Shown: positions 18,709-56,617 of the stretch, piece after piece
Position numbering within the stretch: position 1 is the first letter of the stretch
How the letters are laid out: each line of letters begins with the position of its first letter
DNA from: Cognatundibacterium squillarum
GTDB taxonomy: Bacteria; Pseudomonadota; Gammaproteobacteria; Burkholderiales; Burkholderiaceae_D
Reading direction: 5' to 3'
DNA: 64,000 nucleotides
Assembly (NCBI RefSeq): GCF_014652435.1
Contig: NZ_BMYU01000007.1
Location: forward strand, 1-64,000
The notes under the pieces: generated by a model
What the model was told of the DNA's origin: nothing
Database searches by the model: none
Seen by the model: the letters and a program-made list of their open reading frames with translations, nothing else
Translations under genes and position numbers: made by a program

Positions 18709-18820
18709 TATGCAGAAGTCCGCATCAGCACTTTGCGGGGACCCGGACTTTCTGCCGACGACCGCCGGATCGCTGTGCCGGAATCCGCATTTGAGGCATT
18801 TTCGGGCTGTTTTGGGCAGT
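18709..18820 (-). repeat. Dispersed intergenic repeat, copy A
   Basis: Inverted copy of the family that recurs at 31415, 39489, 49021 and 56519. The 20-base core GTCGTCGGCAGAAAGTCCGG is at 18743-18762 on the minus strand. It lies between the convergent lldD-like and cheB genes. Confidence 0.85.
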
Positions 18821-18899
18821 CCACAGGCCATATCAGACGATACGGCTGCCGGTAAATCAACAAACACGAATCGTTGCGCCCGCGCCTTCAGGGAAGGCC

Positions 18900-20003
18900 T
18901 CAGCGGTGACGCTTGCCGTACTGACTGATCAGTCCGGCGATTTCCTGCAGCGGCACGATACGGTCAACCGCGCCATGCTTCACCGCCTCTTTCGGCATAC
19001 CATACACCACACAGGTTTTTTCATCCTGCGCCAGCGTTTCCGCACCGGCCTGATGCATTTCCAGCAAACCGAGTGCGCCATCGTCCCCCATACCGGTCAT
19101 GATCACGCCCAACGCATTTGCACCGGCATGTTTGGCGACTGAGCGGAACAGCACATCCACCGAGGGTTTATGGCGATTGACCGGCGGGCCATCGAAAATA
19201 TCCACCTGATACTGCGCACCGTTGCGGCGTAACTGCATATGCTTGCCACCGGGCGCGACCAGCGCCAGCCCGTCCAGCACACGGTCGCCGTGCACCGCTT
19301 CGCGCACTTCGATCTGACAAATCTTATTCAGGCGGTCGGCAAAGGCGGCGGTGAATTTCTCCGGCATATGCTGCACGATCACGACCCCGGGGGCATCCGG
19401 TGGCAAGCTTCTGAGCACCACTTCCAATGCCTGCGTACCACCTGTTGATGTGCCGATTGCCACCAGTTTGTCAGTGGTGACCGTCATCGCGCCCGGCTTT
19501 TCGCGGCTTTCGGCAAAAACCGGCGGTGGCTGTAAGGAAGGTACTTTTCCGGCCGCAGCCATACCCGGCGAAGCTGTCATTGCGCGCATGCGGCGCATAT
19601 CTGCCATCGCTGCTTCTCTGACCGTCTGCACCAGATCACCGGCATCGCTGGCCAGGAAATCCCGCAATCCCTGCTTAGGTTTAGTGACAACGGCTACCGC
19701 ACCGGCAGCCATCGCCTGCACCGAAGTAGCGGCCCCTTTTTCTGTCAGAGTAGAACAAATCACCACCGGCGTCGGACGTACCGCCATCACTTGTTTAAGG
19801 AAAGTAATACCGTCCATCCGTGGCATTTCGACGTCCAGCACCACAACATCCGGCCAGTCCTGCCCCATTTTACTCATCGCAAAAATAGGATCTGCCGCCG
19901 TACCAATGACCTCAATACCCGGTTCGCGTGCCAGCACCGCCGCCAGTACCTGGCGCACTACTGCTGAATCGTCGACCAGCATGACTTTAATTTTTTTACT
20001 CAT
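18900..20003 (-). CDS. cheB: Chemotaxis response regulator methylesterase
   Basis: 367 residues. Residues 1-125 are a receiver ([25 protein letters not shown] with the phospho-acceptor Asp, and VTKPKQG). Residues of about 175-365 are the methylesterase, with catalytic Ser in [11 protein letters not shown], His in [12 protein letters not shown] and Asp in [13 protein letters not shown]. CheB removes methyl groups from, and deamidates, chemoreceptors. Last gene of the che operon; its ATG overlaps the cheD stop by 4 bases (ATGA). Confidence 0.96.
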
Positions 20004-20491
20004 GGCAGTATCACTTTTTCCACGTGCCGCACCCAGACATCGCCGGACCAGACATCAAACATCACATTCCGGTGCCCGACTCCGCCCAGATGCTCGGTTT
20101 TGATCTGAAATCCATACTTTTCCAGCAACTGCCTGCCAACATCAATATTGCGGTCCGGAATGGTAAATACCTGTTTACCATGCGCCGGAAACTGATTGCC
20201 ACCACCAAACATCTTTATTTGATAATCACGCGGCTGAGTACGACTGGCACGTATTTCCTGCATAAACAGCGCCAGTGCGTCTTCCGCATACTTTCCATCC
20301 AGTTCGTGCGCAGCATCCTTCTTTCTGAACGGCAGCATGTAATGACACATGCCCCCGATTTTTTTTTGCGGATGCCACATCGTAATCGCGACACAGGAGC
20401 CCAGCAGCGTTCGTATCCGGGTATCTGCATCACCAAAGTAAAATTCTCCGGGTTGCAAAAATATATCAATCAGAAAATCGGGCGTACTCAT
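20000..20491 (-). CDS. cheD: Chemoreceptor glutamine deamidase
   Basis: 163 residues. [20 protein letters not shown] contains the catalytic Cys, MCHYMLP the catalytic His, and MFGGGNQF is a CheD signature. CheD deamidates glutamines of chemoreceptors and in some species works with CheC or CheY. It sits between cheR and cheB in one transcription unit. Confidence 0.95.
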
Positions 20492-20516
20492 CGCTGACCT
20501 CTGTGCCGTTGCCGGT

Positions 20517-21350
20517 TCAGATCTCCCGTTGATAAACAGATGGGAACAGCATCTTCAGCTCATTACTGACGCCATTCAGCGTTTCGGAATGGGAAACCAG
20601 CAAATATCCGCCCGGCTTCAGATGCGGCAGCATGTGGCGTAACAGTTTTTGCTTAGTCGGCAAGTCAAAATAAATCATGACGTTGCGTAAAAAAATCAGA
20701 TCAAATTCACCGAGCGAAGGCGGTAAAGGCTGAATCAGATTTACGGACAGAAAATTAACCCTTTGCCTGAGCACAGGATCAATCATAAAAAAATCTTCAT
20801 ATTCCTCTTTACCGCGCAGGCAAAATCGCTTCAGCATAGCCGGCGGAATTTTCTCCGCTGCCTGCATTGGATACAAGCCCAAACGGGCTTTTTCCAGCAT
20901 ACGCTCGGAAATATCGGTACCGGTAATTTCCCAGCGACTGAGTCTGCCCTGATCCGCAATCACCATTGCCGCGGTATAGGCTTCCTCGCCGCTGGAACTG
21001 GCCGCACTCCAGATACGGAAACTGCTGTTGCCACGTATTCCGTCAATCACTTCCCGCAGAAATTCAAAATGCCGTGGTTCACGAAAAAAATAGGTTTCGT
21101 TGGTCGTCAGCAAATCCAGTGCGAGCCTGGTTTCCTCTTCATAACCCGGCCGCCCGAGCAGGCTGAAATACTGCTGATAATGCGCCAGCTGTAAACGGCG
21201 CAGCCGGTTTTCCAGGCGGCCCATCACCATTGCCTGCTTACCGTCCTTTAAAGCGATACCGGTACGTTCGTACAGGAAGCGGCATATCCAGTCAAATTCC
21301 TGTGCCGACAATTCAAGCACCGGCTTACCGCGTAAATTTTCAGCTCTCAT
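20517..21350 (-). CDS. cheR: Chemotaxis protein methyltransferase
   Basis: 277 residues from the ATG at 21350, which overlaps the cheW 3' end by 11 bases. An N-terminal helical CheR domain (WICRFLYERTGIALKDGKQA) precedes the SAM-dependent methyltransferase: NETYFFREPRHFEFLR, IWSAASSSGEEAYTAAMV and LIFLRNVMIYFD. It methylates glutamates of the receptor. Context: mcp, cheW, cheR, cheD, cheB on one strand. Confidence 0.95.
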   Translation of the reverse strand: MRAENLRGKPVLELSAQEFDWICRFLYERTGIALKDGKQAMVMGRLENRLRRLQLAHYQQYFSLLGRPGYEEETRLALDLLTTNETYFFREPRHFEFLREVIDGIRGNSSFRIWSAASSSGEEAYTAAMVIADQGRLSRWEITGTDISERMLEKARLGLYPMQAAEKIPPAMLKRFCLRGKEEYEDFFMIDPVLRQRVNFLSVNLIQPLPPSLGEFDLIFLRNVMIYFDLPTKQKLLRHMLPHLKPGGYLLVSHSETLNGVSNELKMLFPSVYQREI

Positions 21351-21906
21351 ACTCCCGCTCCTGCGTTCCGGCAAGATGCTTACTGAGACTGGACATTTCA
21401 TCAACCGATAACACTTGCGCCAGATTCAGCAGGACGATAAAACGCCCCTGATGCCTGGCCATACCGGCAATGAAATCCGGTCTGACTCTGGCACCGAAAG
21501 AAGGTGGCGGTTCTATGTCCTGCCCCGGGATTTCCACCACTTCATTCACGGCGTCCACCATCACACCCATCGCCTGCACCTGATTTTCCTGCTCCTCACC
21601 GGACTCAATGATGATAATGCTGGTGCGTCGGGCCACGACAGTCAGTTCGCGGCCAAAGCGGGCATTCAGGTCCACCACCGGCACCACCTTGCCGCGCAAG
21701 TTAATCACCCCGCGTATAAACGGCGGCATCATCGGCACTTCGGTTAAATCTCCGAACTGGATGATCTCCCTGATCGGCAAAATCGGGATAGAAAACACTT
21801 CTCCCGACAACATAAAGGTCAGATACTGCGCGCTGTCATCCGGCATCCTGGCGTCATGCACTGCCACACCGGATGCTGCCATCCCTGTTGCTGCAAGCGT
21901 TCCCAT
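21340..21906 (-). CDS. cheW: Chemotaxis coupling protein
   Basis: 188 residues. YLTFMLSGEVFSIPILPIRE, PPFIRGVINLRGKVVPVVDL and GMARHQGRFIVLLNLAQVL are the CheW beta-barrel motifs that link the receptor to CheA. About 20 extra residues rich in Ala/Gly/Met precede the domain. Nine bases after the mcp stop. Confidence 0.95.
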   Translation of the reverse strand: MGTLAATGMAASGVAVHDARMPDDSAQYLTFMLSGEVFSIPILPIREIIQFGDLTEVPMMPPFIRGVINLRGKVVPVVDLNARFGRELTVVARRTSIIIIESGEEQENQVQAMGVMVDAVNEVVEIPGQDIEPPPSFGARVRPDFIAGMARHQGRFIVLLNLAQVLSVDEMSSLSKHLAGTQEREYES

Positions 21907-21915
21907 AGCAGTCTC

Positions 21916-24585
21916 CTAGAAACGCTCAAACTTCGCTTCATCAAAATGTGCAGCAGTCACATTACGCGCCCGGCGCTCATGTCTGGCGGCGCGCAAAGGT
22001 TGCACCACATCATGATCGCTGCGCAAGTTATCCTGATTGATGCGGAAGAAACTGACCAGCTCCTTCAACTGTTCAGCCTGACTGGTCATTTCTTCTGCTG
22101 TCGCCGCCAGTTCTTCACTGGACGACGCATTTTGCTGAGTGATCTGATTCATCTGATTCATCGCGGTATTGATCTGACCAACACCGGCCGATTGTTCCTG
22201 CGATGCAGCGGCGATTTCCTGCACCAGATCCGAAGTACGCCCGATACCCGGCACGATTTCATCAATCAGTTCACCGGCACGTTCTGCGGTTTTGACACTG
22301 CCGCTGGCCAGATCGCCGATTTCTTTGGCTGCAACCTGGCTGCGCTCAGCCAGTTTACGAACCTCTGCCGCTACCACCGCAAAACCTTTACCATGCTCAC
22401 CGGCACGCGCTGCCTCGATCGCTGCATTCAGCGCCAGCATATTGGTCTGATAAGCGATGTCGTCAATAATGCCGATACGCGAAGCGATATCATTCATGGC
22501 ACTGACCGTATGTTTGACTGCTTCGCCACCTTCCTGTGCTTCACGCGCTGCTTTTCCGGCAATGCCATCCGTCACTTTGGCATTTTCTGCATTCTGGTTA
22601 ATACCGGCAGCCATCTGTTCAATGCTGGCGGAGGTTTCTTCCACGCTGGCCGCCTGCTCACTGGCAGCCTGCGACAGCGACTGGGATGTGGCACTGACCT
22701 GCTCTGCGGCATTCGACAAAGCATCTGTCGAGTTAATGACATCCGTCACAATCTGCGACAGTTTCCCTACCGTCAGATTTGCTGCCTGCTTCAGATCATT
22801 GAATGCGCCGTGAAATTCGCGGTCTATGGTCTGGGTCAGATCACCATTCGCAATCGCCCCGAGCACGCGCTGAATTTCGCTGAGCCCGGTGTCACTGGCT
22901 ACCATGAGGGTATTGATATCATGTCCGAGTTTCTGGAAGAAGCCCTGCTTACCCTCTTCCACAACTCTGGCCTTGAAATTGCCGCGGGAAGCCTGCTCGA
23001 CGATGGCACTGACTTCTTTTTCGATCGCGACTTCCTCAGTTCTGTCCTTCCATTCCACAACACTGCCCAGACGTTCACCTTTGTCTGAAATGACAGGGTT
23101 AGCGGACAATGCAAATGTACGTCCGCCAATCTGGATTTCGGCACGGTGATTATTATTGAATGTGGACAGCATATGCGCCTGATGCGCAGGATTTTTATGG
23201 AACTGATCGATATTGGTTCCCAGCAAACGCGCAGCGCTGAAATTATGCAGGGATTTACGAATATCATTTTCAGCTGCACGCAGCATATCGGAAACAGATT
23301 TATTCAGATAAATAATGTTTCTGTCATTATCAGCAATCATCACATTGGTGGAGCAGTTATCCAGCGCAATTTTGATACGCAGATTTTCTTTGGCGACTGC
23401 GTCTGCTTCCTCCATGCGATTTTTAATATTTCCCACCATCGCAATCAGATTCGCGGAAATACTGCTGATGTCATTCTCCCGCAACGCCAGTTCGGCGGAA
23501 AAATCACCTGACGACACCTTGCTGGCAAATTCCACCACCAGCGCCGGCTCCTGGCCAACCTGTAAAATGATAATCCGTATCATTATGAATGCCAGCACCA
23601 CCACAATCAGAAACAGCAGTAAGCAGGCGCCCACCATTTTCAAACGCAGTGCTTTCTGCTCAGCCAGGCGGTCTTCGGTCCGCTGTGCTGCGACTTTCAG
23701 TAAAGCTTGTTCCAGTTCATGTACTGCATCAATCGCCGCAGACAGCTTTACTGAGTATTCACGCGGATCATAATCGAATCGACTGTTGTCCAGAATTTGC
23801 TCTGACACCAGCCTGCTGGTTTCGGCCAGTTTCTGATTCTGATCAGTGAAGCGGGCCCCGATCTGTTCTTTATATTGCGGCGCTACCGCAATCAGTTTGT
23901 TATAGATTCTTTCACTGCGCTTATTTCCCTCAACAATGATGGAATACAACTCCGCTGACTTATTTCTGTCTTTTTCACTGAGCGCTTTTGCATTGAGTAT
24001 ATCCTGCCCCATGGATCGTACCTTGCGCACGTCTTCGGTCATACGTATCACGCTATCCGTCGTCAGTGCACCCAGATAAAATGTCGCAGGATCGTTACTA
24101 AGTATCAGGTTAGAGTTATCGGTCACCTTATCGATCAGCTGAAATGCTTGCGTAATTATCGCCAGATGGCGTGCCCGGTTTTCGTCAAGTTTGATGCGCT
24201 CCGCATCCGCCTGCAGGGCGGTCCAGCTTTGCTTGAGCTGACCAACATTCTCTTCAATTTTCAACACCTCGTGCTGGCGTGCTGCCACCACAAGCTGATC
24301 CAGCAATGCCGTCATTTCCTGCGCGGTTGCATCGCGCTGACTGCGCATTTCACTTTGCCCCAGAATGACCAGTGTATTCATGCCGGCATGGCGCTGTGCC
24401 AGCTGTATGGTTTTTGCCAGTAAAGGCATGGTCGTGATGCCGGACTGCTCATGCGCGGTTGCCTGAATATCGCTGTTGATACCATGTACATACAGAGAAA
24501 GTGGCAAACCAAACAGCACGACTACGAATATTCCTACGAGGGCAAATTTCTGCCACATTTTCAGTGATTCAATCAGCGATTTCAT
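21916..24585 (-). CDS. Methyl-accepting chemotaxis protein with PAS domain
   Basis: 889 residues. TM1 at about 12-33, a long periplasmic four-helix region (about 34-310), TM2 at about 315-340, then a HAMP-like segment, a PAS domain (about 405-520) and a signalling domain whose hairpin tip includes [37 protein letters not shown] and [11 protein letters not shown] are methylation-helix regions. The C terminus ends KFERF, which fits the x-[FWYH]-x-x-[FWYH] docking pentapeptide for CheR/CheB. The ligand is unknown. It is encoded inside its own che operon. Confidence 0.93.
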
Positions 24586-24644
24586 TTGCGCTTCCTTTCT
24601 CTTATACAGGCGTATTTCCCGAATCTGATATTTCCCCGTGTATT

Positions 24645-26861
24645 TCAGTTTTCCCTAATCAGCGGCAATGCCGCCGGACTACTCTGCAAAAATTGCTGCT
24701 CCTGCTTTTTAGAATGCTGCAGCATCGCCGCCACACTGAGTATCAGTGCAACCTGCCCGCTGCCCAGAATGGTCGATCCGCCTATGCCCTGCACATGCTG
24801 AAACAGGCGGCCCAGTGGCTTGATGACCGTTTGAAATTCTCCCATCAGCCTGTCCACTACCAGCCCGGCTTTTTCCCCGCCGTAGCCAACCACAACCACA
24901 TTCTGACGCCGTGGCAATGGCATCTGAATATCAAATAACTGACGTAAGCGTATATACGGCAACACTTCTCCGCGTAAGTCCATGTAATCCTGCTGCAAGC
25001 CATCCTGTGGCAACTCCAGACATTCGATAACATGATCCAGCGGCACCACGAATGCAGATTCGCCGACTTCCACCAGAAACCCGTCAATAATCGCGAGGGT
25101 CAGCGGTAAGCGCAGACGCATGGTGGTGCCGACACCCATCTCAGAATCAATTTCGATTACACCACGCAGCGACTGCACATTTTTCTTGACCACATCCATA
25201 CCGACGCCGCGGCCGGACAAACTGGATACTTGCTCAGCGGTGGAAAAACCCGGCTCAAAAATCAGTTCAAAAATTTCTTTTTCACTCAGCACCGTATCGC
25301 GCTCTATCAGACCGCGCTCGATCGCACGTGCCAGAATTTTGTCTTTATTCAGGCCGCCACCGTCGTCACTGACTTCAATCACGATGCTGCCGGATTCATG
25401 ATAAGCATGCAGTTTCAGGGTTCCCTGTGCCGGTTTGCCGCGTGCTTCCCGCACTGCAACCGGTTCGATGCCATGATCCATAGAATTACGTACCAGATGC
25501 ATCAGCGGATCACCGATCTTCTCGACCACAGATTTATCCACCTCGGTTTCGCCACCGGTAATATCCAGCACAATATCTTTGCCCAGCTCCAGACTGACAT
25601 CACGCACCACGCGCTGAAAGCGGCTGAAGGTCGTGCCAATCGGCACCATGCGCAACTGCAGTGCGCTGTCACGCACTTCTTCGACCAGCCGCATGACCTC
25701 GCTGGTGGCTTCCGTCATACTTTCATCATGCAATTTGCTGGCACGCAGATTGGCCCCTGCACCCGCAATCACCAGTTCGCCGACCAGATCTATCAGTTTG
25801 TCCAGTCGCTCCGCATCGACACGGATGCTCTGGCGCTCCCGGGCTTTTTGCTCCTTAACCTGCTGCTGTTTGTGCAGTGCTGCATCCACCAGCGGTGCCT
25901 GTATCAGTTCTTCTCTGACCAGAATTTCACCGATATGCGGATTTTTTTGCCCGCCATGACTTTGCTCTCTTTGCCGGGATTGCTTCTGCAGACAGGATTC
26001 CAGTTCATGGCGTGTCAGTACGCCGCTTTTTACAAGAATCTCACCCAGCATTTCATGGTCTTCAGACAGCCCCTTAATAATCTCTATGTATTCATCTACA
26101 CGGCTATTTGGCGCAATAATGCGTATCGTGCTGTCATCGCGCACAAACTCAAACACACTTTCAATGGCTTCTTTGGTCGCTGCACTCTTCAGGACAATTT
26201 CAAATCCCAGATAGCAAGTCTCAGCATCCATCTGTGGCAGTTCAGGAACTGCAGTAATGATGGTGCTTAAATGCACCACGTCGCCGACTGTACTCAGATA
26301 ACGGATGAATGACAGAGGGTCCATCCCGTTGCGCAGGCAATCCGGACCAAATCGCAGCGACAAATACCAGTTTCCCGAATCCACCGCAGCCTGCGCTCCG
26401 GCAATCGGCTGAATATCCGGCTGATGTTCGGCAACATGCGCGTTAGCGCCCGCTTTTCCATCCATGAATTGCTGTAAAGCGTGCTGAAGTTCAGCGCCAT
26501 GCTCAGCCAGCTCAGGCGGGTCCTGTAATCGTCCTGCAGCTATCCCGTCGATCAGCGCCATCAGGTGATCACGACATGGCAAGAGAACCGCAATCAGACC
26601 ACTGCTGACCTGAATCTCGCCGTCCCGCATCTGATCCAGCAGACTTTCCAGCGTATGAGTAAATTTGACGATGTGATCAATGCCGAACAGACCGGCAGAG
26701 CCTTTGATGGTATGTGCCGCACGGAAGATCGCATTCACAGCGTCTGCCGGACTGTCACTGTGCTCCAGATTCAGTAACAGCTCTTCCATGTCTTGCAGCA
26801 GATCACGGCTTTCTGCAACGAAAGTCTCCAGCGCTGCCTGCATTTCACTGTCAAAGCTCAT
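24645..26861 (-). CDS. cheA: Chemotaxis histidine kinase
   Basis: 738 residues from the ATG at 26861 (GGAGGTGGGA upstream). Order: HPt domain with phosphorylated His in [16 protein letters not shown] (residues of about 5-105); a response-region-like segment (about 155-265); two repeats of GEILV-x-SGVL type (about 275-350); dimerisation helix; ATPase with [20 protein letters not shown] and VSDDGGGLN; and a C-terminal CheW-like domain. It autophosphorylates and passes phosphate to CheY and CheB. The paired GEILV repeats between P2 and P3 are not part of the E. coli protein. Confidence 0.94.
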
Positions 26862-26941
26862 TCCCACCTCCGTTTGCAGAACTGCATTCGATGGAAAAAG
26901 CGATCGCACTCCGGCAATCGCCCTGTCTTTTACAACCGGGT

Positions 26942-27226
26942 TCAGTGCACCAGAACGACAGGATCACCAAACCAGGCCGTCAGATTGGTGAACTCAAGTA
27001 TTTCGAGCACAGGTTTGCTGTGCATGACAAAGCGCAGTCGCTTATTCAGCTTGTGCGCTTCTTTTTTCAGTACGATCAGAATCTGCAAGCCCGCTGAATC
27101 AATTTCTGTCACGGCAGACAAATCCAGCTCCAGATCATCGTCGCTGTAAAGAAAACTTTGCAGACGCTGTTTCTCCTGCGCAGCGGTGTAAATCGTCAGT
27201 TCGCCTTCCACCAGGGTAGCTTGCAT
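26942..27226 (-). CDS. STAS-domain protein of the che operon
   Basis: 94 residues covering a complete STAS (anti-sigma antagonist) domain: VEGELTIYTAAQEKQRLQSF then LDLSAVTEIDSAGLQILIVL, with a serine at the usual phospho-switch position (DSAG). STAS proteins bind partner kinases or other regulators. Being placed between cheY and cheA, it probably modulates the kinase array, as in other Proteobacteria with STAS genes in che operons. Its partner here is unknown. Confidence 0.85.
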   Translation of the reverse strand: MQATLVEGELTIYTAAQEKQRLQSFLYSDDDLELDLSAVTEIDSAGLQILIVLKKEAHKLNKRLRFVMHSKPVLEILEFTNLTAWFGDPVVLVH

Positions 27227-27235
27227 GACGCACTC

Positions 27236-28480: not shown

Positions 28481-28496
28481 ACTTATTAACATTCAA

Positions 28497-31341: not shown

Positions 31342-31414
31342 TTGTGCGCTGTCTGCCGCTCTGCCATCCGTCTGCCTGTCTTCACTGATGCCGCAGCCTC
31401 TGAAAAACCGGTTT

Positions 31415-31515
31415 TCGGGCTGAAAATGCCTGAAATGCGGAGTTCAGCACAGCGATGCGGCGGTCGTCGGCAGAAAGTCCGGGCCTCCGAAAATGACAAA
31501 TGACGATGTCTGCAC
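31415..31515 (+). repeat. Dispersed intergenic repeat, copy B
   Basis: Core GTCGTCGGCAGAAAGTCCGG at 31463-31482. The 3' part AAATGACGATGTCTGCACA is shared exactly with copy C, which marks a subfamily. It lies downstream of the phoD-like terminator. Confidence 0.88.
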
Positions 31516-31716
31516 AATTGATCAGGTTGCGCTGCGGCAGATGCAGGCGAGGATAACTTGCGATTTACCCACAGACTCAGCCGCCGCATTTTCGGCATCT
31601 GTGTTCCACCGGTGACACAGGAATCGCAGCCATCCGGCGCTTTTCATCAGCCTGACACAGTCCGCAGGCACACTGGCTGAAATGCAGAATCCGTATATTG
31701 CGATGCAACAATGCGG

Positions 31717-39452: not shown

Positions 39453-39488
39453 CATGTCCGCCTGATGGCGGCTCCGCAATACCCAAAA

Positions 39489-39590
39489 ACCGCCCAAAAT
39501 GCCTCAAATGCGGCTTTCAGCACAGCAATCCGCCTGTCGTCGGCAGAAAGTCCGGGCTTGCGCGAAACCTAAATGACGATGTCTGCACAG
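39489..39590 (+). repeat. Dispersed intergenic repeat, copy C
   Basis: Core GTCGTCGGCAGAAAGTCCGG at 39536-39555, and the same 3' part as copy B. Located between the convergent metal-exporter and AraC-type genes. Confidence 0.88.
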
Positions 39591-39611
39591 TGTGCGGTGC
39601 GGCGGCGGTGC

Positions 39612-46723: not shown

Positions 46724-46741
46724 GATGCCGGTGATACTTGT

Positions 46742-47482: not shown

Positions 47483-47597
47483 GATGTGTGCTCTGTCTGA
47501 GGTTGGGCAATGGTGGAAGCTGTTTTCCACCGCATTCACCGGAGATGGGGACGCTGGCGCGCAGTGCAAGATCCGTTTTAAAAATTCCTGTTGGTAC

Positions 47598-48083: not shown

Positions 48084-48164
48084 AGAATTTTCTTAAAAAT
48101 GATTCATACAAAAAACCGTGATTGCGGTGCACAGATCGCACTGGCGATGTGTGTTAGACGCTGA

Positions 48165-48869
48165 TCACGGTGCAAGTATTTGTAACGAAGGAAACCAACG
48201 CGCCGAAATGCGGCGGGCGAGTTTGATGCTGGCGACATCTGCGGCGACATAGCCTAAGAAAGCACCGAAAGGGGGATTGGTGGCGTGCAGCCAGCCACCT
48301 GCGCTTTCGGCGGCCCAGCGCCAGCACCCGAGCTGGGTACCAGCGATTTCCAGCGCCAGTACGATCCATGCCATCAGGCCGTACACCAGACTGTAGCGGC
48401 GTTTGCGAAATACAAACAGGCCGAGCGCACCAAAAGCCAGCGACAGCGTATCGCCGAGAAACAGCGCTACCGCAGCGATGATCAGCCAGTTCACCCGCGC
48501 CAGCCAAGGAGCGATCTTTGCGCCGTATTTCTGAAAGAAAGAGAGATCGGCCAGCACCCATGCAATCACCAGCAGTATCGGATGACCGAGCGGCACATAG
48601 ACGGGAATATTGCTGAGCCGGTATTCGTAGACGCGAAACACCAGACTGAACAGGCATTCGCCGACGATGGCAATCACGATAAAGCACAGCACAATCAGCT
48701 GGCGTTCACGCGGCAGGCGTTGCAGGGTCAGCCATAAAAAACCGGCCGTCATTGCCACCGATACACTCTGCCCCCAGCTGATGAATTGCTGCATCCACAG
48801 CGAATCCATGCCGAGCACGATCAGGAATAAAAAGGGCGACAGGCTATATAAACGGTTCAGCGACATCAT
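48165..48869 (-). CDS. Polytopic membrane protein of unknown function
   Basis: 234 residues with about seven hydrophobic segments. Motifs include YEYRLSNIPVYVPLGHPILL and GWLHATNPPFGAFLGYVAAD, which look conserved rather than random, but I cannot name the family. Start ATG at 48869 or 48866. No signal peptide. Spaced 81 bases from the WbuC-type gene. Confidence 0.65.
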   Translation of the reverse strand: MMSLNRLYSLSPFLFLIVLGMDSLWMQQFISWGQSVSVAMTAGFLWLTLQRLPRERQLIVLCFIVIAIVGECLFSLVFRVYEYRLSNIPVYVPLGHPILLVIAWVLADLSFFQKYGAKIAPWLARVNWLIIAAVALFLGDTLSLAFGALGLFVFRKRRYSLVYGLMAWIVLALEIAGTQLGCWRWAAESAGGWLHATNPPFGAFLGYVAADVASIKLARRISARWFPSLQILAP

Positions 48870-49020
48870 GTTTTCATCAGATTGCGGCCAGCCGCGATGT
48901 TTGCGACCGGCTTCCGCCGCCGATGGTAACAGAAGCCCCCTGTTCCGGTCAGCGATCTGAATAAAATGTCATCATCTTCGCCCTTGCCTGTGCGATCTGC
49001 CCAACAGGGCGCGCCGGCAG

Positions 49021-49118
49021 CCCCAAAATGCCTGATTTGCGCAGTTCTGCACAGCGATCCGGCGGTCGTCGGCAGAAAGTCCGGCTCTCCGGAAAAGCCA
49101 AATGCGGATTTCTGCATC
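49021..49118 (+). repeat. Dispersed intergenic repeat, copy D
   Basis: Core GTCGTCGGCAGAAAGTCCGG at 49065-49084, followed by the small hairpin TCCGG-CTCT-CCGGA shared only with copy E. Copies D and E are nearly identical over about 90 bases and form a second subfamily. Confidence 0.88.
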
Positions 49119-49138
49119 ATGGTACAGATGAAACAGCA

Positions 49139-49166
49139 ACGGACAGGCATCGTGTTGCCTGTCCGT
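49139..49166 (-). terminator. Probable terminator of the siderophore operon
   Basis: ACGGACAGGCA (49139-49149) pairs perfectly with TGCCTGTCCGT (49156-49166), 11 bp with a 6-base loop, 28 bases after the receptor stop. The U tract on the minus strand is interrupted (TGCTGTTTC). Confidence 0.7.
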
Positions 49167-49193
49167 TTTCATTGCTTATAAGGTTTGCAACAT

Positions 49194-51260
49194 TCAGAAG
49201 CGCGTCGTCAGCACCAGTGCTGCATTGAAGGGTGCACCCGGCTGCAGCTGAACATTATTGTTGGCGGATTCGATGTAGCGGGCGTTGCCGATATTGTTCA
49301 GTTTCAGCGTGATGTCGTAAGCCGGTTGCAGATAAGTCAGCGCAAGATCAGTGCGCGCATAGCCTGGCAGGCTGACTTTATTGTCGCTGAGAGCAAACTG
49401 CGCACTGTGCGCAATCACGCCGACACCGATGCTCCAGTGTTTCAGGAAACGCTGCTTCAGCCACAGGCTGGCATTGTGCTTCGGTGTCATTTCTGCGCGG
49501 TTACCCACGGGGATATCATTCGAGGCAATGATGCCGGCATCGTTATAGCTGTAAGCGGCACTGAGCCAGGTATCGCTGAACAAGCGTCCCTGCAATTCCA
49601 GTTCCAGACCCTGATTGCGCTGACGCCCCACTTGCAACTGACGCAGACCTGCCGGGTCGGTCGGGTCTGGCGTCAGCTGATTGCTTTGTTCTGCACGGAA
49701 CAGCGCAATGCTGGTGAACAGGCGCTGATTCAGCCATTCCTGTTTCAGACCGACTTCCTGAAAATCGGTACGCAGCGGTTTGACATCACTGAGCGGGTTA
49801 CTGCCGGTGTACAGCAGATCGCCGCCTGCCGGCTGATACGAACGGGCAGCAGTGAAATACAGTACTTGCTGCGGTGTGATCTGATAGCTCAGTCCCAGTC
49901 GCGGCGAAAACAGATTGTCGGTACGTTCACTGACTGCATTGTTTTTCAGATGATTGGTCTGCTCCTGACGGAACTGATCGTAGCGGGCAGCGAGCAGCAG
50001 GCTGAAGGCCGGACTCAGTGTGATTTTGTCCTGCAGATAGACAGCGCGTGTGTCTGCGCGAAATCCGGCATCAATGGCAGCCGGTAAGTTCCGGAAATCC
50101 GGTGCACTGAGCACGTTCTGAGGCTGATACAGGTCAACCGGATAAGCCGTACCGGTTTGTCTGACGACGGAATCACGCTTCTGTTGCGATATTTCCAGTC
50201 CGGCCAGCAATGCATGCTGCCCCAGCGTATAGCGCAGTTCTGTCTGATTCGTCAGGTTCTTTTGCTGTATCGGGAAATACGTGATCTGGCGCGATACCGT
50301 ATTGTCTGCATTGACACGACGGTTACGGGTATTCACGCCGTCCAGATCTGTCTGACTGAATTGCAGGTTATTCACCAGACTGAGTTGCGCACTGAACTGA
50401 TGTTCCAATCTGGCTTTCAGCATATCGCTGTCGGTACGGGTGAAGTCAAATTTCTCGCCGTAAAATTTTGCCGGATCAACGTTCACCGCGCGGCCGTTCA
50501 GCGCAGGTATGCCACGGTCAGGTGTGTGATCTTCGCGCTGTATTTCCGACTGAACTAACAGACTGGTGTCCGGACTCAGTTGCCATGCGAACGACGGGGC
50601 AAGCAGGGTGCGTTTGTGCTCTACCACATCACGGTAACTGTTACCCGCATCGTAGGCTGCGATCAGACGTGCATTCAGTTGCGGATTCAGCGCGCCGCCG
50701 GTGTCCAGTGTCACACGACGCTGGCGCTCCGTTCCCAGCATCAGCGAGATTTCATTATCCTGTTTGGCCTGAGGTTTTTTGGTGACGCGGTTAATCAGCC
50801 CACCGGCTGCACCACGGCCATACAGCGCGGCTGTCGCCCCCTTAATCACTTCCAGCTGCTCCGTGGTTGCCAGATCGCGGAAATATAAACTGTCATCGCG
50901 CATGCCATCCAGCAGGGTATCGCGTGGTGAATAAAAGCCACGGATATAAAACTCATCGCGCCGGCCTTCGCCTTGTCCGGCAATCACACCCGGCGTGTAG
51001 GCCAGTGCCTCTTTGCTGCTGTTGACTGCACGGTCACGCAATTCTTCATTACTGACCACCGATACAGATTGCGGTGTCTCCAGCACAGTGTCGCCGTTCT
51101 TCGCTGCGCTGACCTGCGTGCCACCTTTTACAGAGCGTGCTTTTACTTCAATTAAAGGCAGTTCATTTTTGACATTTTCTGCAGCCAGCGCAGACTGTCC
51201 ATACAGTGAACTGAGTATAACGGAAACGATAAGGGAAAGACGTTTTTTCTTCATGATCAA
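49194..51260 (-). CDS. TonB-dependent siderophore receptor
   Basis: 688 residues. A signal peptide ends at SALA (about residue 26). The plug carries TVLETPQSVSVVSNEELRDR, YTPGVIAGQGEGRRDEFYIR and EVIKGATAALYGRGAAGGLI, typical of ferric-siderophore receptors; the barrel ends in Phe (ALVLTTRF). There is no N-terminal signalling domain, so no FecI/FecR-type control is expected. It lies 24 bases after the last synthetase gene, as the final gene of the Fur-controlled operon, and should import the siderophore made by the neighbours. Confidence 0.92.
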   Translation of the reverse strand: MIMKKKRLSLIVSVILSSLYGQSALAAENVKNELPLIEVKARSVKGGTQVSAAKNGDTVLETPQSVSVVSNEELRDRAVNSSKEALAYTPGVIAGQGEGRRDEFYIRGFYSPRDTLLDGMRDDSLYFRDLATTEQLEVIKGATAALYGRGAAGGLINRVTKKPQAKQDNEISLMLGTERQRRVTLDTGGALNPQLNARLIAAYDAGNSYRDVVEHKRTLLAPSFAWQLSPDTSLLVQSEIQREDHTPDRGIPALNGRAVNVDPAKFYGEKFDFTRTDSDMLKARLEHQFSAQLSLVNNLQFSQTDLDGVNTRNRRVNADNTVSRQITYFPIQQKNLTNQTELRYTLGQHALLAGLEISQQKRDSVVRQTGTAYPVDLYQPQNVLSAPDFRNLPAAIDAGFRADTRAVYLQDKITLSPAFSLLLAARYDQFRQEQTNHLKNNAVSERTDNLFSPRLGLSYQITPQQVLYFTAARSYQPAGGDLLYTGSNPLSDVKPLRTDFQEVGLKQEWLNQRLFTSIALFRAEQSNQLTPDPTDPAGLRQLQVGRQRNQGLELELQGRLFSDTWLSAAYSYNDAGIIASNDIPVGNRAEMTPKHNASLWLKQRFLKHWSIGVGVIAHSAQFALSDNKVSLPGYARTDLALTYLQPAYDITLKLNNIGNARYIESANNNVQLQPGAPFNAALVLTTRF

Positions 51261-51284
51261 TTTCTAATGTAAAGTATTAATAAA

Positions 51285-53204
51285 TCAGGCAACAGCAGAG
51301 ATTTCGTTCACCACGCCCAGCGGGTGATATAAAGGGAAATAGGCGGCCTTGCGATCGGCCTGTTTCAGGAAGCGGATCAGCAAATTCCCTTTCACCGGCA
51401 AAGGTTCACCGGAGAGCAAACCCTGAATGCGGCGAGCAGCTTCGGGATGAGGAAAAATAGCCAGGTAGGCTTGCAGTGTGCTGCGCAGGCATGCCCACAA
51501 TTCGAGATACAGGCTGTGATTACCGTTGGCCAGCGTCGCAATCACTTCACAAATGTTATTCACCAGCAGGCAGTATGCGATGCGTGTCCAGCCTGCATCA
51601 TCACTGCAGTGGATATCGCTGATCGCCTGCGGATCGGCGAACTGCTCCTTCAGCAGCGCACGGCCTTTCGGTGTCAGCCGCGTCAGTTCCAGATCACGGA
51701 CAAAGAAACTGCATGGCGCACCGTCCTCCGCCAGCCCGACGATACTGTTCTGCATATGCGGTTCAAACGCGATGCCTTTTTCAAACAGCAGATAAAACAC
51801 CGGAAAAATTGCCAGCTCAGCATACTGCTGAAACCATTGCTGCAATCCCTGACGGAATGAGAGTCCGTGGCGGTGCGAGAATTTTTCTATCAGTGCCGCA
51901 GTTTGCAAACGGCCTGCCATGCCGTTGCCGAACAATGCTGCGCAGACGTGCGGCGTAATGCCCTGTGCCATCGGTGCCGCCAGACCTTCCCGCAATACCA
52001 GCCCGAAACCGTCTTCAATTTCCTTATGCGCACGGGCGGCGTTCTGCCGGTTCTCAGGAAAACTGAGACTCAGATAAGCCTGCTCCTCCAGTACATGAAA
52101 GCGCGGAAACAGCATCTGCATAAGTGGTTTGATTTGACGGTACACACGGCTGGCGGTCAGTGCTGCCGCCAGTTCATGGCGTGCATTGTTGCGTATGCAG
52201 TTCGTAATACGCATATTCAGAGACAACTTCAGAAACGCGGTAGCATCCTCTGCCACCATCGTACGTATTGAGGCAGTAGGGGCAAAATGCTGCCCGTGAC
52301 AACCAAGATCGCGGATCTCTCCGGCAGCAATGGCTTCAGCGATGCGTGTCTGCTTCAGCATCCAGTCTGCCTGCCACGGATGTAAAGGCAGCACGACCCG
52401 CCCTTCTTCAGCCTGCAAGCCATGTGCAGTCAGCTGCTGCAAATGCACTGCCGTATCTTTGCCGTCCAGACTGTCACTGATGATCCAGTCTGCCGGTACA
52501 CTGAAATAACGTAATTGCAGGCTGGCACCATGCTCAGGCGAATATTGTTGCTGCTCTGCGCGGCTCCAGCCCGAACGGCTTTTCGGGGTCGGATGAAACG
52601 GATGGCCGGTCAGCAGATTCTGTTCACTGGCGATATAACCGGACAATGCACTTTGCTGGCCGGGTTTCTGCCGGTCTGCCTGGGCGTTCAGCAAATGCTG
52701 CATGGTGGCGACGCTTTCCGTGATTTGCTGCTGCAAATCCTGATTGAACGGCGTTCCCTCACGCTGCGATAAATCACGGATGATGATGCCTGCGATAACG
52801 TCCCAGCCGGCAACGCGCCAGACCTGCTGCTGATCCTGCAGGAAGATCTCCGTGGTGTAATCGTAATTTCCGGTCACTGATACATGGCGCACGCCAACGC
52901 AGATGCGACTTTGCAGACGCGGTATTTGTATATCCAGCACCTGCCCTGTGTAATGCCGCAAAGCTGGCGGCAGGCTGCGCGTGCTGGCAACGCTGCGCAC
53001 CGCGAGCTGGTGTTCCTGCATCGCGACTTCACGCGCATAACAGTTCAGCAAAACCCGTGCATGTAAAACGCCGGCGTCGCTACTGACGGAGACCGTCGCC
53101 GTGTTGCCGGTCAGCGGCCGTCGTTGTGTCATCACAGGAAATTGCAGCGCTGAAAAATTTTCCGGCAGAGATTGCCAGGCTGATTGCGGTAAGCTTGCAT
53201 TCAT
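51285..53204 (-). CDS. NRPS-independent siderophore synthetase, IucA/IucC family (second)
   Basis: 639 residues from the ATG at 53204, overlapping the exporter stop as ATGA. LLTGHPFHPTPKSRSGWS has the family motif GHPxHPxxKxRxG; LPLHPWQADWM, ASIRTMVAEDATAFLKLSLN and MRITNCIRNNARHE are nucleotide-binding and active-site regions; FEPHMQNSIVGLAEDGAP is near the C terminus. These enzymes use ATP to join a carboxylate such as citrate to an amine or alcohol. Probably performs the second condensation. Confidence 0.92.
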   Translation of the reverse strand: MNASLPQSAWQSLPENFSALQFPVMTQRRPLTGNTATVSVSSDAGVLHARVLLNCYAREVAMQEHQLAVRSVASTRSLPPALRHYTGQVLDIQIPRLQSRICVGVRHVSVTGNYDYTTEIFLQDQQQVWRVAGWDVIAGIIIRDLSQREGTPFNQDLQQQITESVATMQHLLNAQADRQKPGQQSALSGYIASEQNLLTGHPFHPTPKSRSGWSRAEQQQYSPEHGASLQLRYFSVPADWIISDSLDGKDTAVHLQQLTAHGLQAEEGRVVLPLHPWQADWMLKQTRIAEAIAAGEIRDLGCHGQHFAPTASIRTMVAEDATAFLKLSLNMRITNCIRNNARHELAAALTASRVYRQIKPLMQMLFPRFHVLEEQAYLSLSFPENRQNAARAHKEIEDGFGLVLREGLAAPMAQGITPHVCAALFGNGMAGRLQTAALIEKFSHRHGLSFRQGLQQWFQQYAELAIFPVFYLLFEKGIAFEPHMQNSIVGLAEDGAPCSFFVRDLELTRLTPKGRALLKEQFADPQAISDIHCSDDAGWTRIAYCLLVNNICEVIATLANGNHSLYLELWACLRSTLQAYLAIFPHPEAARRIQGLLSGEPLPVKGNLLIRFLKQADRKAAYFPLYHPLGVVNEISAVA

Positions 53205-54340
53205 AGACGTTTGCTTTCTATAAAAATTGTCAGACCGGCCAGCAGTAAGCAAGCGAGCCAGACGGGAGCGGTATAGTTGAAAGTGCTGGCCAGTGTGCTG
53301 GCAAGAATGCCTGCGAAGACAGCGCCCCACTTATTCGCGCCTTCCAGATTTCCGAAATGCCGTCCGGCACTGCTGTGACGGGTGGTGCCGGCGGCCAGTG
53401 CATTGATCGCCAGATACGCACCGGTCATGCCGATGCCCATCAGTATCCTGCCCGCTGCCAGCAAGCCTGCGCCCTGCGCCAGACCCTGCATCAGCAAACC
53501 GGCGCAAGTCAGGGCGGAACAGCGCGCCAGTGCAGTCTGTGCATTCTGCAATTGAATATGGCGATTCATCGGCCATGCCAGTAGCAGAAACAGGACGTGC
53601 GGCAAGCCGAATAAAGCGCCCGCCCAGCCTGCAGAAAGATGCAGGCGTTCCGCCAGATCAATCACAAAATACGGATATGTCAGAACGGTGCCGATGGTGA
53701 ATACCGCCTGAAAACGATATAGCGTTGCGGCACTTATCCCTGCAACCGCGTTACCGGATGCAGCAGACTCAGGCTTGTTTGCAGGTACGGTGCTTGCAGG
53801 CTCCGGCAAAAAATACAGCAGTACACCGGCCAGACCGGGTAACAGTGCCAGATACAAAAAGATTCTCAGCAGATTTTCCTGCGCACCGAATAAGCCGATG
53901 ATGGCCGGACCGGCGAACAGCGCGGTTCTGGCCGACCCCTGCATCACACTTAACAGGCTGGCCAGTTTTTTGCCCTGCAAAAATGACGCGAGAAATGCAT
54001 TCGATGCCGCGAACGTGCCGCCAAGCAAACCCTGCAGACACAGGCCGGCTGCAAACTCCCACGGTGTACGTGCCAGACCGGTCAGAATGAAGCTCAGGCA
54101 CAGCCCCCAGTGCGCGCGGATCAGGGAAGCACGTATGCCGATGCGGTCTGCCAGCTTGCCCCATAAGGGATTTGCAATCGCCGCTGCCAGTGTCGGCAGT
54201 GTGAAATACCAGCCCGCCATCAGCAGAGATTGTCCGGAGAAGTTCTGCTGCAGGATATGCGCATAAAACGGTGGCATGCAGAGCGCGGCAAATGCTGCCG
54301 CGAAGTGCCCCAGCACCGTCACAGAAACAGCTTGCCGCAT
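53201..54340 (-). CDS. MFS transporter, probable siderophore exporter
   Basis: 379 residues from the ATG at 54340, sharing one base with the upstream stop (TGATG). About eleven to twelve membrane segments; NPLWGKLADRIGIRASLIRA is the MFS loop 2-3 motif and LGGTFAASNAFLASFLQGKK lies in the centre. Lying between two siderophore synthetase genes, it most likely exports the product across the inner membrane, as SfaA-type and LbtB-type carriers do. Confidence 0.88.
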   Translation of the reverse strand: MRQAVSVTVLGHFAAAFAALCMPPFYAHILQQNFSGQSLLMAGWYFTLPTLAAAIANPLWGKLADRIGIRASLIRAHWGLCLSFILTGLARTPWEFAAGLCLQGLLGGTFAASNAFLASFLQGKKLASLLSVMQGSARTALFAGPAIIGLFGAQENLLRIFLYLALLPGLAGVLLYFLPEPASTVPANKPESAASGNAVAGISAATLYRFQAVFTIGTVLTYPYFVIDLAERLHLSAGWAGALFGLPHVLFLLLAWPMNRHIQLQNAQTALARCSALTCAGLLMQGLAQGAGLLAAGRILMGIGMTGAYLAINALAAGTTRHSSAGRHFGNLEGANKWGAVFAGILASTLASTFNYTAPVWLACLLLAGLTIFIESKRL

Positions 54341-56145
54341 CAAACCTCCGCAGCAGGCAGATACGGGTGTAAGGGATTCGGCACTGCATGAAAGCTCTGA
54401 GTCTGCGCAGCAGTCAGACGCCGGCTGGCCAGTTTTTCCAGTTGCAGTTGCGGTACAAACAAGCCGAACTGATCAAACCTCGCCTGCAGTTCCGGTACTT
54501 GCGTCCGGTAACGCAGCAAGGTCTGCGCGGCGCTTTGCCAGAAGCAGACTTCGCTGTAGCCGTGATACTGCGCAAGTCGCTGCGCCAGCTCAGACAAATG
54601 AATAAACAATAATACTTCAAGCAGATAGTCGCGCGCTTCCTGTACGGTTTCCATCGCAAAACCGTTGCTGGCGTTGGCAGCATTACGGAAAGCCGGTGCC
54701 TGACGCAGTGCCTGCAACGCAGCTTCATCGCTGGTCTGGCCGGCAATATAGTGCAGGCCGCCATGCAGATCCCGCATACCGATACCGACCGGCAAACCAT
54801 CGCGAACAATCAGCAAGGTGTTTTGCGCGTGTGCTTCCAGCAAGACGCCGTGTGCCAGCATCAGATGCACCAGCGGCGGTAACAACGCCTGCAGGAAGGC
54901 ATCAACCCATACAGCGGTTCCGTGTTGCTCCAGCCACGGAGCAATGTTGAGTTGCTGACGCTGAAGATCGGGCGTGGTCAGCAAGGTACAGGGCAATATC
55001 TGTTCGTCACTGCGCAGTAAGGATGCCGGTGACTGACGCCAGATGGCGCTGAGCAATCCGTAGCGGTCTTCCCGTGACGCTGCCGGCTTCAGCGAAATTC
55101 CTACCGGTTCGCTGAGTAAGGCCAGCCGGCAGTGTGTTTGCAGAAAAGAATCGGCTGCACACAAGCGGTTCAGCCATGCAGAAATCAGCGGTGCGTTATG
55201 GGTATGGTGATCCGACAATATGCGGTCTGCCGAACTGTTGGCGATGCCCAGCGGCAGCTTCAGATGACAGTTTTGCGCCGTATCCAGCGGACTCAGTGAA
55301 CGTATCGATTGTTGTGCCAGCCAGTCTGCTTGTCCTTCGCCCAGATACAGCAGACGACCATCCGCCAGCCAGTCCGCATACTGTATCTGCAGTAAACGCC
55401 GCCAGTGCCACGGATGCGCAGGTAACAGCACATATGCATCACTGTCTTTCCCCACTTGTCGTATCTGATTCTGTAAGCGCTGCCATTCCGCACTGCCGGT
55501 TTGTTCCTGCAGGAATGCCTCATAACTGATGCCCGGCAGCGTATGGATTTCGCTCAGATTTTTTTCCAGCGCCAGCCAGACCAGATGAAAACTGCGGGCA
55601 AATTCCGGGCCATAGCGGCGGTGATCTTCCAGATCAAATCCGATGCGTGAGCGATAACATGGATGGTACAAATGGCCTTCGCCAAAACTGGCTTCCTGCC
55701 ATGCAAACGGCAGCGCCAGTGCTGCTGCTCCGGCGGGTGCAGCCTGTTGTGCCTGCAGGCTGCAGGCTTGTTTGGCGGCGGTATGCAATAACTCCTGTAC
55801 AAAGCGGGCACTGTGCTCCGCTTTCAGCGGCCTCAGCAAGCGGGTCACAAGCGTATGAATATCCGTCACCGGCTCTTTGCTGTTCTGTTCGCATAACGGG
55901 CCGTACAGACGACGCCGTCCGAAACTGCTAACCGGCCCTGCCGCTATCCGGTACAGAACATCCTGCCCCTGCTCATCCAGCCCGCACAAATACAGGACAG
56001 CCTTGCCACCGGCATCCTGTTCCAGATGCGTGTTCAGCGCACCCTCAAACCAGAACGCTTCGATAAACTGGCGCAAAGTACGTTCTGCGGCTGCGGTGTA
56101 CAGCAAGGCATCCTGCCCTGCGGAATTCAAAAGTGTGTGATCCAT
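54340..56145 (-). CDS. NRPS-independent siderophore synthetase, IucA/IucC family (first)
   Basis: 601 residues from the ATG at 56145; a TTG precedes it. SFGEGHLYHPCYRSRIGFDL is the family motif with two changes from GHPxHPxxKxRxG (Pro to Leu, Lys to Arg). LLPAHPWHWRRLL, LKLPLGIANSSADRIL and LEAHAQNTLLIVRDGLPVGI complete the active-site pattern. First gene of the operon, 236 bases after the Fur-box promoter. It probably makes the first amide on citrate. Confidence 0.91.
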   Translation of the reverse strand: MDHTLLNSAGQDALLYTAAAERTLRQFIEAFWFEGALNTHLEQDAGGKAVLYLCGLDEQGQDVLYRIAAGPVSSFGRRRLYGPLCEQNSKEPVTDIHTLVTRLLRPLKAEHSARFVQELLHTAAKQACSLQAQQAAPAGAAALALPFAWQEASFGEGHLYHPCYRSRIGFDLEDHRRYGPEFARSFHLVWLALEKNLSEIHTLPGISYEAFLQEQTGSAEWQRLQNQIRQVGKDSDAYVLLPAHPWHWRRLLQIQYADWLADGRLLYLGEGQADWLAQQSIRSLSPLDTAQNCHLKLPLGIANSSADRILSDHHTHNAPLISAWLNRLCAADSFLQTHCRLALLSEPVGISLKPAASREDRYGLLSAIWRQSPASLLRSDEQILPCTLLTTPDLQRQQLNIAPWLEQHGTAVWVDAFLQALLPPLVHLMLAHGVLLEAHAQNTLLIVRDGLPVGIGMRDLHGGLHYIAGQTSDEAALQALRQAPAFRNAANASNGFAMETVQEARDYLLEVLLFIHLSELAQRLAQYHGYSEVCFWQSAAQTLLRYRTQVPELQARFDQFGLFVPQLQLEKLASRRLTAAQTQSFHAVPNPLHPYLPAAEV

Positions 56146-56371
56146 CAATCTCTGCCTGTATTAGTGTTGCGAGACAAGGCAGGCCGGAACCGGCACCGCT
56201 GGTCTGCAATTTCTGAAACCGGAAACGGATTGCAGCAGCGTTACACGGAATGCGCTCAGCAGAGGCAGCCCGTTGCGGGTACTGAAAAAATCCTGTTTCA
56301 CGTGCCCCGACAAGGAGTGCTGGCAGACAGATCAAGCTGGCGCTTGAGAGCGGGTGAAGTCAATTTGATAA

Positions 56372-56400
56372 ATACTAAATGATAATGATTCTCATTTCAA
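56372..56400 (-). promoter_or_regulatory. Fur-controlled promoter of the siderophore operon
   Basis: On the minus strand TTGAAA (56395-56400) and TAGTAT (56372-56377) are 17 bp apart. A Fur box GATAATGATTCTCATTTCA (56381-56399) overlaps the -35 and spacer and matches the 19-bp consensus at 14 positions, including the whole GATAATGAT half. Iron-loaded Fur would block the polymerase. Confidence 0.85.
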
Positions 56401-56518
56401 GTGTTAATCTTGTGTAATTTTTGTTTATTGATGCACATCACCGGTAACAGCCCGACCCGGCTTCGCAAGCATCTGTGGCAACGTATCCTGCGCGCCGCCC
56501 TGTTTGTCTGTACTAAGG

Positions 56519-56617
56519 GCCTGAAAACCCCCGTTTTGCGCAGTTCTGCACAGCGATCCGGCGGTCGTCGGCAGAAAGTCCGGCTCTCCGGAAAAGGCAA
56601 ATGCGGATCGCTGCATA
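56519..56617 (+). repeat. Dispersed intergenic repeat, copy E
   Basis: Core GTCGTCGGCAGAAAGTCCGG at 56564-56583, in the divergent region between the siderophore operon and the SRPBCC gene. The rest of 56146-56775 holds the operon leader, the Fur promoter and nothing else I can name. Confidence 0.88.

Follow-up and report, generated by a model that had tools for sequence, protein, structure and literature searches.

The 64,000-nucleotide stretch of the Cognatundibacterium squillarum genome analysed here (contig NZ_BMYU01000007.1, positions 1 to 64,000; the window below) carries five copies of a dispersed intergenic repeat of about 100 bp, in which a left box, a core and a right box are kept in helical register, and which exists in two length forms, the longer having gained about one turn of the helix on each side of the core. 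The fixed spacing is accompanied by flanks with helix-phased A/T tracts, by a lack of base-pair covariation and by a location between genes. Together, these features point to a double-stranded DNA site for a large DNA-wrapping nucleoprotein complex, probably concerned with chromosome topology, a reading to which a probability of roughly one half can be assigned.

The core of the repeat occurs exactly five times in the window, where 0.01 occurrences are expected and none of 100 shuffles gives five or more; the exact search returns the same five places that the first-pass annotation, made from the letters of this stretch, had listed. A 119-column model of the element recovers from the window only these five known copies at an expect value (E) of ≤1, and they align without gaps from the left box through the right box. 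The large genome-wide family predicted from them was confirmed. When up to one, two or three mismatches are allowed, the source genome (label G000; 4,185,104 bases in 20 contigs) contains 231, 267 and 293 cores, respectively, against 0, 0 and 3 matches of the backward pattern, which corresponds to about one core per 14 kb and about 300 copies of an element of about 100 bases. The core had also been described as invariant, which holds for the window copies. Genome-wide, this impression arose partly because copies had been picked by the core, and 62 of the 293 cores carry two or three changes. A model with the core masked gave ten matches on 144 kb of contiguous sequence: eight with exact cores, one with a single change and one of the long form. 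The 32 left boxes found in 20 stretches chosen for the lack of an exact core are followed by 26 cores with one to three changes, one with five changes and five with a different middle.

The anatomy of the short form was read in fixed windows around the core from 110 copies picked by the core, 101 of them with an exact one; these remained of 114 places after one from another genome and three with three or four mismatches had been dropped. In this reading, both boxes keep a single register across the 110 copies over about 115 bp, and MAFFT introduced zero gaps in the 119 columns of the 55 copies given to it. In the profile of the 110 copies, the left box, AAATGCGGnnTTCnGCAyAG, occupies positions -30 to -11, and the core positions 0 to +19, followed by the block CTCCGnAAAT. 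The right box, at +36 to +55, is a direct repeat of the left box and comes in two versions, ATGACGATnnyTGCAyAA and ATGCGGATnnyTGCAyAA, which differ at +40/+41 (ACG versus CGG). Spacer columns such as +33 have a composition near background. The element ends sharply on the right, and on the left it tapers off across A/T tracts at -39, -49 and -59. The five window copies, all of the short form, are composed as follows, with cores placed by exact search, the boxes of copy A by the 110-copy register and profile, and those of copies B to E by alignment, register and profile:

18706..18824, minus strand: copy A, whole element, -62 to +56 around the core (model match 18707-18818)
18743..18762, minus strand: copy A, core
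18773..18792, minus strand: copy A, left box
18707..18726, minus strand: copy A, right box, CGG version, direct repeat of the left box
31401..31519, plus strand: copy B, whole element (model match 31408-31518)
31433..31452, plus strand: copy B, left box
31463..31482, plus strand: copy B, core
31499..31518, plus strand: copy B, right box, ACG version
39474..39592, plus strand: copy C, whole element (model match 39482-39591)
39506..39525, plus strand: copy C, left box
39536..39555, plus strand: copy C, core
39572..39591, plus strand: copy C, right box, ACG version
49003..49121, plus strand: copy D, whole element (model match 49017-49117)
49035..49054, plus strand: copy D, left box
49065..49084, plus strand: copy D, core
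49101..49120, plus strand: copy D, right box, CGG version
56502..56620, plus strand: copy E, whole element (model match 56513-56619)
56534..56553, plus strand: copy E, left box
56564..56583, plus strand: copy E, core
56600..56619, plus strand: copy E, right box, CGG version

The spacing of the boxes was measured in 517 kb of the source genome, mostly selected by core or left box, so that the distance to the right box was not fixed by the selection. Taken alone, the left box occurs at 163 places in the genome and the right box at 161, and the backward patterns at none. Separate scans for the two boxes place them, in the frame of the scan, either 66 bp apart (147) or 85-88 bp apart (7 elements, 13 counts), equivalent to box distances of 65 bp and about 85-87 bp, and no left-right pairs were found in the 517 kb at any other distance from 40 to 140 bp. 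After the addition of 15 long-form loci and with the range set to 20-250 bp, 140 pairs lie at 66 bp, 19 at 85-88 bp, and single pairs at 202 and 222 bp; when the boxes are taken in reverse order in this enlarged scan, the distances are mirrored and two singletons appear. From the left box to the motif GTCGGC the long form has 41 bases, compared with 31 in the short form, and from GTCGGC to the right box about 45 bases, compared with 34 (13 elements; the first distance was read as 41 in 10 of them, and in three the anchor matched a GTC three bases earlier). The core of the long form is thus flanked on either side by about 10 bp of extra sequence with A/T tracts, one helical turn each, and this core, GACGTCGGCAGAAAC.CTGGC, is homologous to that of the short form. 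Among the 90 matches listed for a long-form model, 40 span 103-111 bp, 48 span 84-89 bp and are short forms, two are partial, and none is of about 97 bp, midway between the forms. The gain of one turn on both sides together is what a symmetric complex with all its contacts on one face of the helix would demand. Combined with the strict helical-turn spacing over about 300 sites, it argues for selection for a DNA-protein complex.

The regularity continues beyond the boxes. In the mean of the 110 copies, peaks of A/T content are seen on the left at -29, -39, -49, -59, -69 and -79, with fainter ones as far as about -110, and on the right at +29, +37, +45, +54, +67, +77, +88 and +111; the phasing reaches about 110 bp to either side, about 220 bp in total. 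The periodicity at -130 to -62 and at +57 to +130, ranges that exclude most of the conserved sequence, was reached on neither side in 1000 shuffles in which each copy was slid; farther out it was reached in 1 of 1000 on the left and in 25 of 1000 on the right. The best period is about 10.25-10.5 bp for the left flank and about 11.25-11.5 bp for the right one. Left-hand A/T tracts are present in the long form too (15 copies), its right flank being weak. A dinucleotide wedge model predicts a curvature of 35.6 degrees for the left arm, against 20.9 degrees in shuffled sequence.

Changes coupled between columns are local, with 44 of the 45 top mutual-information pairs lying at most 7 bases apart. 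Whole blocks are exchanged, AAA and TTT for one another at -40 to -38 and -50 to -48, and AC for CG at +40/+41; the AAA/TTT swaps are as expected of bending, not of base pairing. The single distant covarying pair, -7/+22 (T with C or C with T), could pair in 5% of the copies. Folding of the consensus, recommended earlier, was performed with RNAalifold and yields two helices per strand, of 3 and 5 pairs on one and of 4 pairs each on the other, nearly devoid of covariation, and the hairpin TCCGG-CTCT-CCGGA, to which the first-pass annotation had drawn attention, is present in some copies and is not conserved in the family as a whole. No copy in the window is matched by Rfam at the gathering threshold, and of the two Rfam matches in eight loci at E ≤0.5 neither falls on a copy. 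RNA structure was therefore rejected as the basis of the family, there being neither pairing covariation nor an Rfam match on a copy. The position of copies near gene 3' ends could suggest that the repeat acts as RNA, for instance as a terminator, a riboswitch or a small RNA, an explanation that these results, and the fact that terminators, where seen, are separate from the repeat copy, leave scarcely credible.

As for the surroundings, copies A (18.7 kb) and C (39.5 kb) are situated between convergent genes, copy B (31.4 kb) between tandem genes and copy E (56.5 kb) between divergent genes, and copy D (49.0 kb) is in a tandem context if the open reading frame (ORF) at 48165-48869, which has no family match, is a gene. 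The neighbours of copies B and E have NCBIfam matches below the curated cut-offs only, and Pfam matches none of the ORFs that overlap copies A, B and E. The convergent, tandem and divergent contexts noted at the outset are thus borne out by ORFs, Pfam and NCBIfam. For 99 of the 110 copies the genes on both sides were typed, the other 11 lacking a typed neighbour; of the 99, 61 are convergent, 33 tandem and 5 divergent, compared with 14 convergent regions among the 55 intergenic regions of 144 kb (Fisher p 2e-5); the genes are simple ORF calls, which disagree for some copies, B being tandem in one and convergent in another. In 53 convergent cases, a terminator-like hairpin was detected between the element and the gene to its left in 30 and on the other side in 21, with the detector firing in 7 of 90 cases inside genes; these too rest on simple ORF calls. 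Elsewhere in the window, positions 1526-1699 correspond to a yybP-ykoY manganese riboswitch (Rfam), and 54340-56148 to a gene whose similarity to that of the staphyloferrin B synthetase SbnF falls short of the curated cut-off (NCBIfam).

The copies are well diverged, with a mean pairwise identity of 67.7%. In 440 kb, 118 full copies were found, and the only partial match turned out to be of the long form; the presence of diverged copies without indels or remnants is best explained by selection. Subfamilies in the sense of lineages, as proposed in the first-pass annotation from the shared right ends, were not upheld: the right-box versions are linked strongly only to the neighbouring columns +35, +44, +45 and +47, and weakly to a few others, e.g., +27 and -23. 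Clear clonal subfamilies were accordingly rejected, there being no strongly linked column sets beyond neighbouring positions.

A rather unlikely alternative is a non-autonomous mobile element, resembling a miniature inverted-repeat transposable element (MITE) or a repetitive extragenic palindrome (REP), spread by a transposase whose needs would account for the conservation. It would agree with the high copy number, the intergenic location, the abundance in one species with few relatives in three others, and the existence of some copies closer to each other than shuffled columns allow; among the 15 closest pairs four are genome neighbours, including the two closest. The genome also encodes one Y1-type transposase, the only Y1_Tnp match being G000:C11:113908-114231. 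Against mobility, the 3.3-kb locus of this gene (L223) contains no copy of the element, the boxes are direct and not inverted repeats, the left edge fades rather than ending, and no indels apart from the two helical forms occur between the boxes. Truncated copies are scarce (the one partial match beside 118 full copies, and two partial among the 90 listed), strongly linked subfamilies are lacking, and no target-site duplication stands out for either this family or the second one described below; among 4680 combinations of offset and length tested for the element, the best reached 4 of 110 copies, with 0.4 expected. By contrast, repeats of the sister species G004 have both indels and near-identical copies.

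The family misses most of the tested defining features of REP and MITE families. According to passages of PMC3733652, REPs are tagged palindromes of 20-40 bp, found at convergent intergenic sites too, and those of the CGTC superfamily have a palindrome stem of 8-9 bp and a loop of 4-5. No such stem was found in the element, in which the RNAalifold helices have 3-5 pairs, the one of five pairs being bulged, and lack covariation; CGTCGGCAGAAAGTCC folds at -0.9 kcal/mol. The letters CGTC do occur within the core, before or overlapping the weak bulged hairpin of five pairs, that is, in the middle of the element and not at an end. The GTAG superfamily is described, in parts of PMC3733652 and PMC2817692, by a GT(A/G)G head followed by a GC-rich palindrome with a stem of 5-13 bp, and the consensus of the element contains no GTAG or GTGG ahead of a stem. 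Head-to-head dimers, the predominant arrangement of REPs, were not found, the closest of the 101 exact cores listed being 1,249 bp apart and, with inexact cores included, the closest two in the loci examined 872 bp apart (L086). Nor is there an arrangement like that of REP-associated tyrosine transposases, since the single Y1_Tnp gene has no repeat copy in its 3.3-kb locus. The element shares with REPs and bacterial interspersed mosaic elements (BIMEs) the hundreds of intergenic copies, often restricted to a species and enriched between convergent and tandem genes (PMC3733652), and differs from them in its length of about 100 bp, the lack of a covarying stem, the direct-repeat boxes, the two length forms and the phased flanks. 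The terminal inverted repeats of MITEs, mentioned in a part of PMC10969869, were not found either, the boxes being direct repeats. With bacterial MITEs such as Correia and the enterobacterial repetitive intergenic consensus (ERIC) the element has in common that it is short, non-coding and dispersed; it has no terminal inverted repeats or sharp left end, and no target-site duplication was found.

The earlier impression that the repeat is not a known element holds as far as searches of Rfam, plasmids, phages, other genomes and paper texts reach, and the element resembles no described repeat family that could be found with these tools. One copy searched against plasmids and one against phages gave no match. 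Scans of viral contigs found six stretches with a 17-base core, five with the ends of the second family and none with a left box plus core. A phage or plasmid origin was rejected on the absence of a match to a copy, the viral-contig matches being taken for chance, for which no expectation was computed. In the searchable paper texts the core occurs in no paper, the papers listed for the boxes and for the ends of the second family are off topic, and none of those listed for the topic concerns the element; most of the subscription literature is absent from these texts, so that this is no proof that it is unpublished.

The search of related genomes for the core, again following the first-pass annotation, showed it to be abundant in the source genome and to have few or no matches in its relatives within the genus. 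With at most three mismatches, 11 of 42 other genus genomes give one to three matches each, a number close to that of the backward control; two matches with two mismatches are in G066. A single one-mismatch core is present in each of two among 398 other genomes of the order, and the exact core in at least two unrelated contigs among the matches listed in a wide contig scan. The GlmS protein of the source resembles its Burkholderiales counterparts, with 73.5% to an Acidovorax plasmid record. The short-form model, run with strict filters against 42 genomes including the source, gave strong matches (E below 1e-7) in three sister species, G001 (3), G011 (2) and G062 (3), and one weak match (E 0.004-0.1) in each of 14 other genomes. 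In G001, G011 and G062 an insertion of about 1.7-2 kb lies between two related copies (L114:5565-7667; the same place in L115 and L116); ORFs in it match Hint domains in G001 and G062, and the two ORFs tested of G011 do not. The source genome has a single copy in the corresponding gap. Inside the G001 insertion a stretch of about 40-50 bp (GGAATGCATCTGTTGCG...) is repeated.

Such flanking pairs could indicate a site for recombination, DNA uptake or segregation (attachment, uptake or centromere-like). The paired sister copies have different cores, so that they are not products of one exchange. The Haemophilus uptake sequence has an AAnTGCGG-like core and, like the element, phased A/T tracts, and the left box AAATGCGG presumably recalls that core; the uptake sequence is much shorter and far denser, and its tracts lie on the other side of the core. 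One copy per 14 kb is sparse next to the densities that we assume for uptake sites, and this explanation is considered improbable.

In three further species, G033, G029 and G012, the gap that holds a single copy in the source genome is occupied by another repeat, ATACTCCC...GGGGGAGTAT, about 78 bp long and unrelated in sequence to the first (e.g., G033 L123:3306-3424). Matches to this second family were found in 16 of the 42 genus genomes, ten with 17-85 strand-wise matches and six with 1-6 (places matching on both strands are counted twice), and none in G000; the backward pattern gives no match. In 190 kb of G033, all 59 pairs of its ends that are 50-170 bp apart have a separation of 78 or 79 bp, a result that is unfiltered and concerns this species only, another set of lengths having been pre-filtered to 76-81 bp. 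Its flanks are phased with periods of 10.0 bp on the left and 11.25 bp on the right (41 copies from several species), a signal reached near the element by none of 1000 shuffles on both sides, and farther out by 273 and 228 of 1000. In G033, 16 places are convergent, 15 tandem and 4 divergent, with one at an edge, a few having been counted twice via overlapping loci.

A general rule that both families occupy the same orthologous places was rejected, only one of six G000 elements in an 80-kb region fitting it: the gap between the GH44 and aminotransferase genes is shared, and for the other five either no second-family copy or no clear orthologous gap was found. In G003 and G022, species with few copies, a copy of the second family is located between the same SIS-domain and sugar-binding-protein genes (L129 and L130); low-copy sites as a clue to the gene of the binding protein were dismissed, these neighbours naming no binder. 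The idea that every species has such a family was likewise abandoned, as the abundant repeats of G004 (L192-L201; 13 places), which share GAGGCTGTCGCAAAAG, have indels and near-identical copies; part of these repeats resembles dRS3, and the repeats of G060 are what we take to be dRS3-like. A k-mer test found no such repeats in G026 and G066 (200 kb each). A Guanidine-II riboswitch (Rfam) is present in G033 at L172:2598-2645.

For the proposed nucleoprotein site, a protein or proteins would contact the left box, core and right box on one face of the helix, and the flanking DNA, as well as the interior of the long form, would be bent or wrapped at the helix-spaced A/T tracts. The sites may be kept by selection in intergenic gaps, mostly between gene 3' ends, where they would probably serve to anchor or wrap the chromosome, to insulate it or to manage its supercoiling, working in the manner of BIMEs or strong gyrase sites. 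Protein binding, wrapping and a role in topology are what we infer.

DNA gyrase is the best named candidate because its motif has a centre with phased flanks and BIME-2 elements are gyrase sites, bound and cut by the enzyme in the account excerpted from PMC6379681. In that account the Escherichia coli motif consists of phased GC/AT flanks around a centre, with a period of 10.75 bp and a length of 130 bp. The element shares helix-phased flanks around a central region with BIME-2, with the strong gyrase site of phage Mu and with the E. coli motif; it is phased on both sides and sits at gene 3' ends and in convergent regions, as would suit dispersed strong sites at which gyrase itself removes positive supercoils between converging genes, the way the BIME-2 and Mu sites act in E. 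coli. The E. coli motif is degenerate and covers 130 bp, whereas the boxes and core of the element are far more sequence-specific and its phasing, about 110 bp on each side, extends over about 220 bp. The sites are also absent or few in sister species. Gyrase must be present in those species as well. Range, specificity and species distribution therefore argue against gyrase alone, which is an unlikely identity for the protein.

Several observations weigh against a site maintained for a nucleoprotein complex. The standard deviation of pairwise identity is 0.052, against 0.0405 in shuffled columns, and six pairs reach 85% identity where shuffles give at most one, which shows that some copying history remains. 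In the wedge model the right arm has no extra curvature (35.2 degrees, against 35.3 shuffled), and exact cores are spaced much as at random along contigs C1 and C2, and more evenly than that along C3. Convergent placement is typical of REPs as well (PMC3733652). Finally, in samples of 200 kb from each of four other species of the genus, no copy of either family was found, so that any role is dispensable at the genus level.

Both families have a fixed length, and in both the repeat of the flanks is about 10.0-10.5 bp to the left and about 11.25-11.5 bp to the right, a common pattern that hints at one protein of changing specificity wrapping DNA asymmetrically. Tentatively, and with more doubt than attaches to the nucleoprotein site itself, the repeat may belong to a new class of chromosome-organising DNA elements in part of one betaproteobacterial genus, read by helical geometry and replaceable boxes, with the same machinery serving the sequence-unrelated family of the sister species. 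Dispersed bacterial repeats are mostly viewed as mobile debris or RNA hairpins. The family would offer a direct way into two questions: by what means a bacterium might mark its chromosome between converging genes and insulate it there, and how such a mark can be replaced by an unrelated sequence in sister species.

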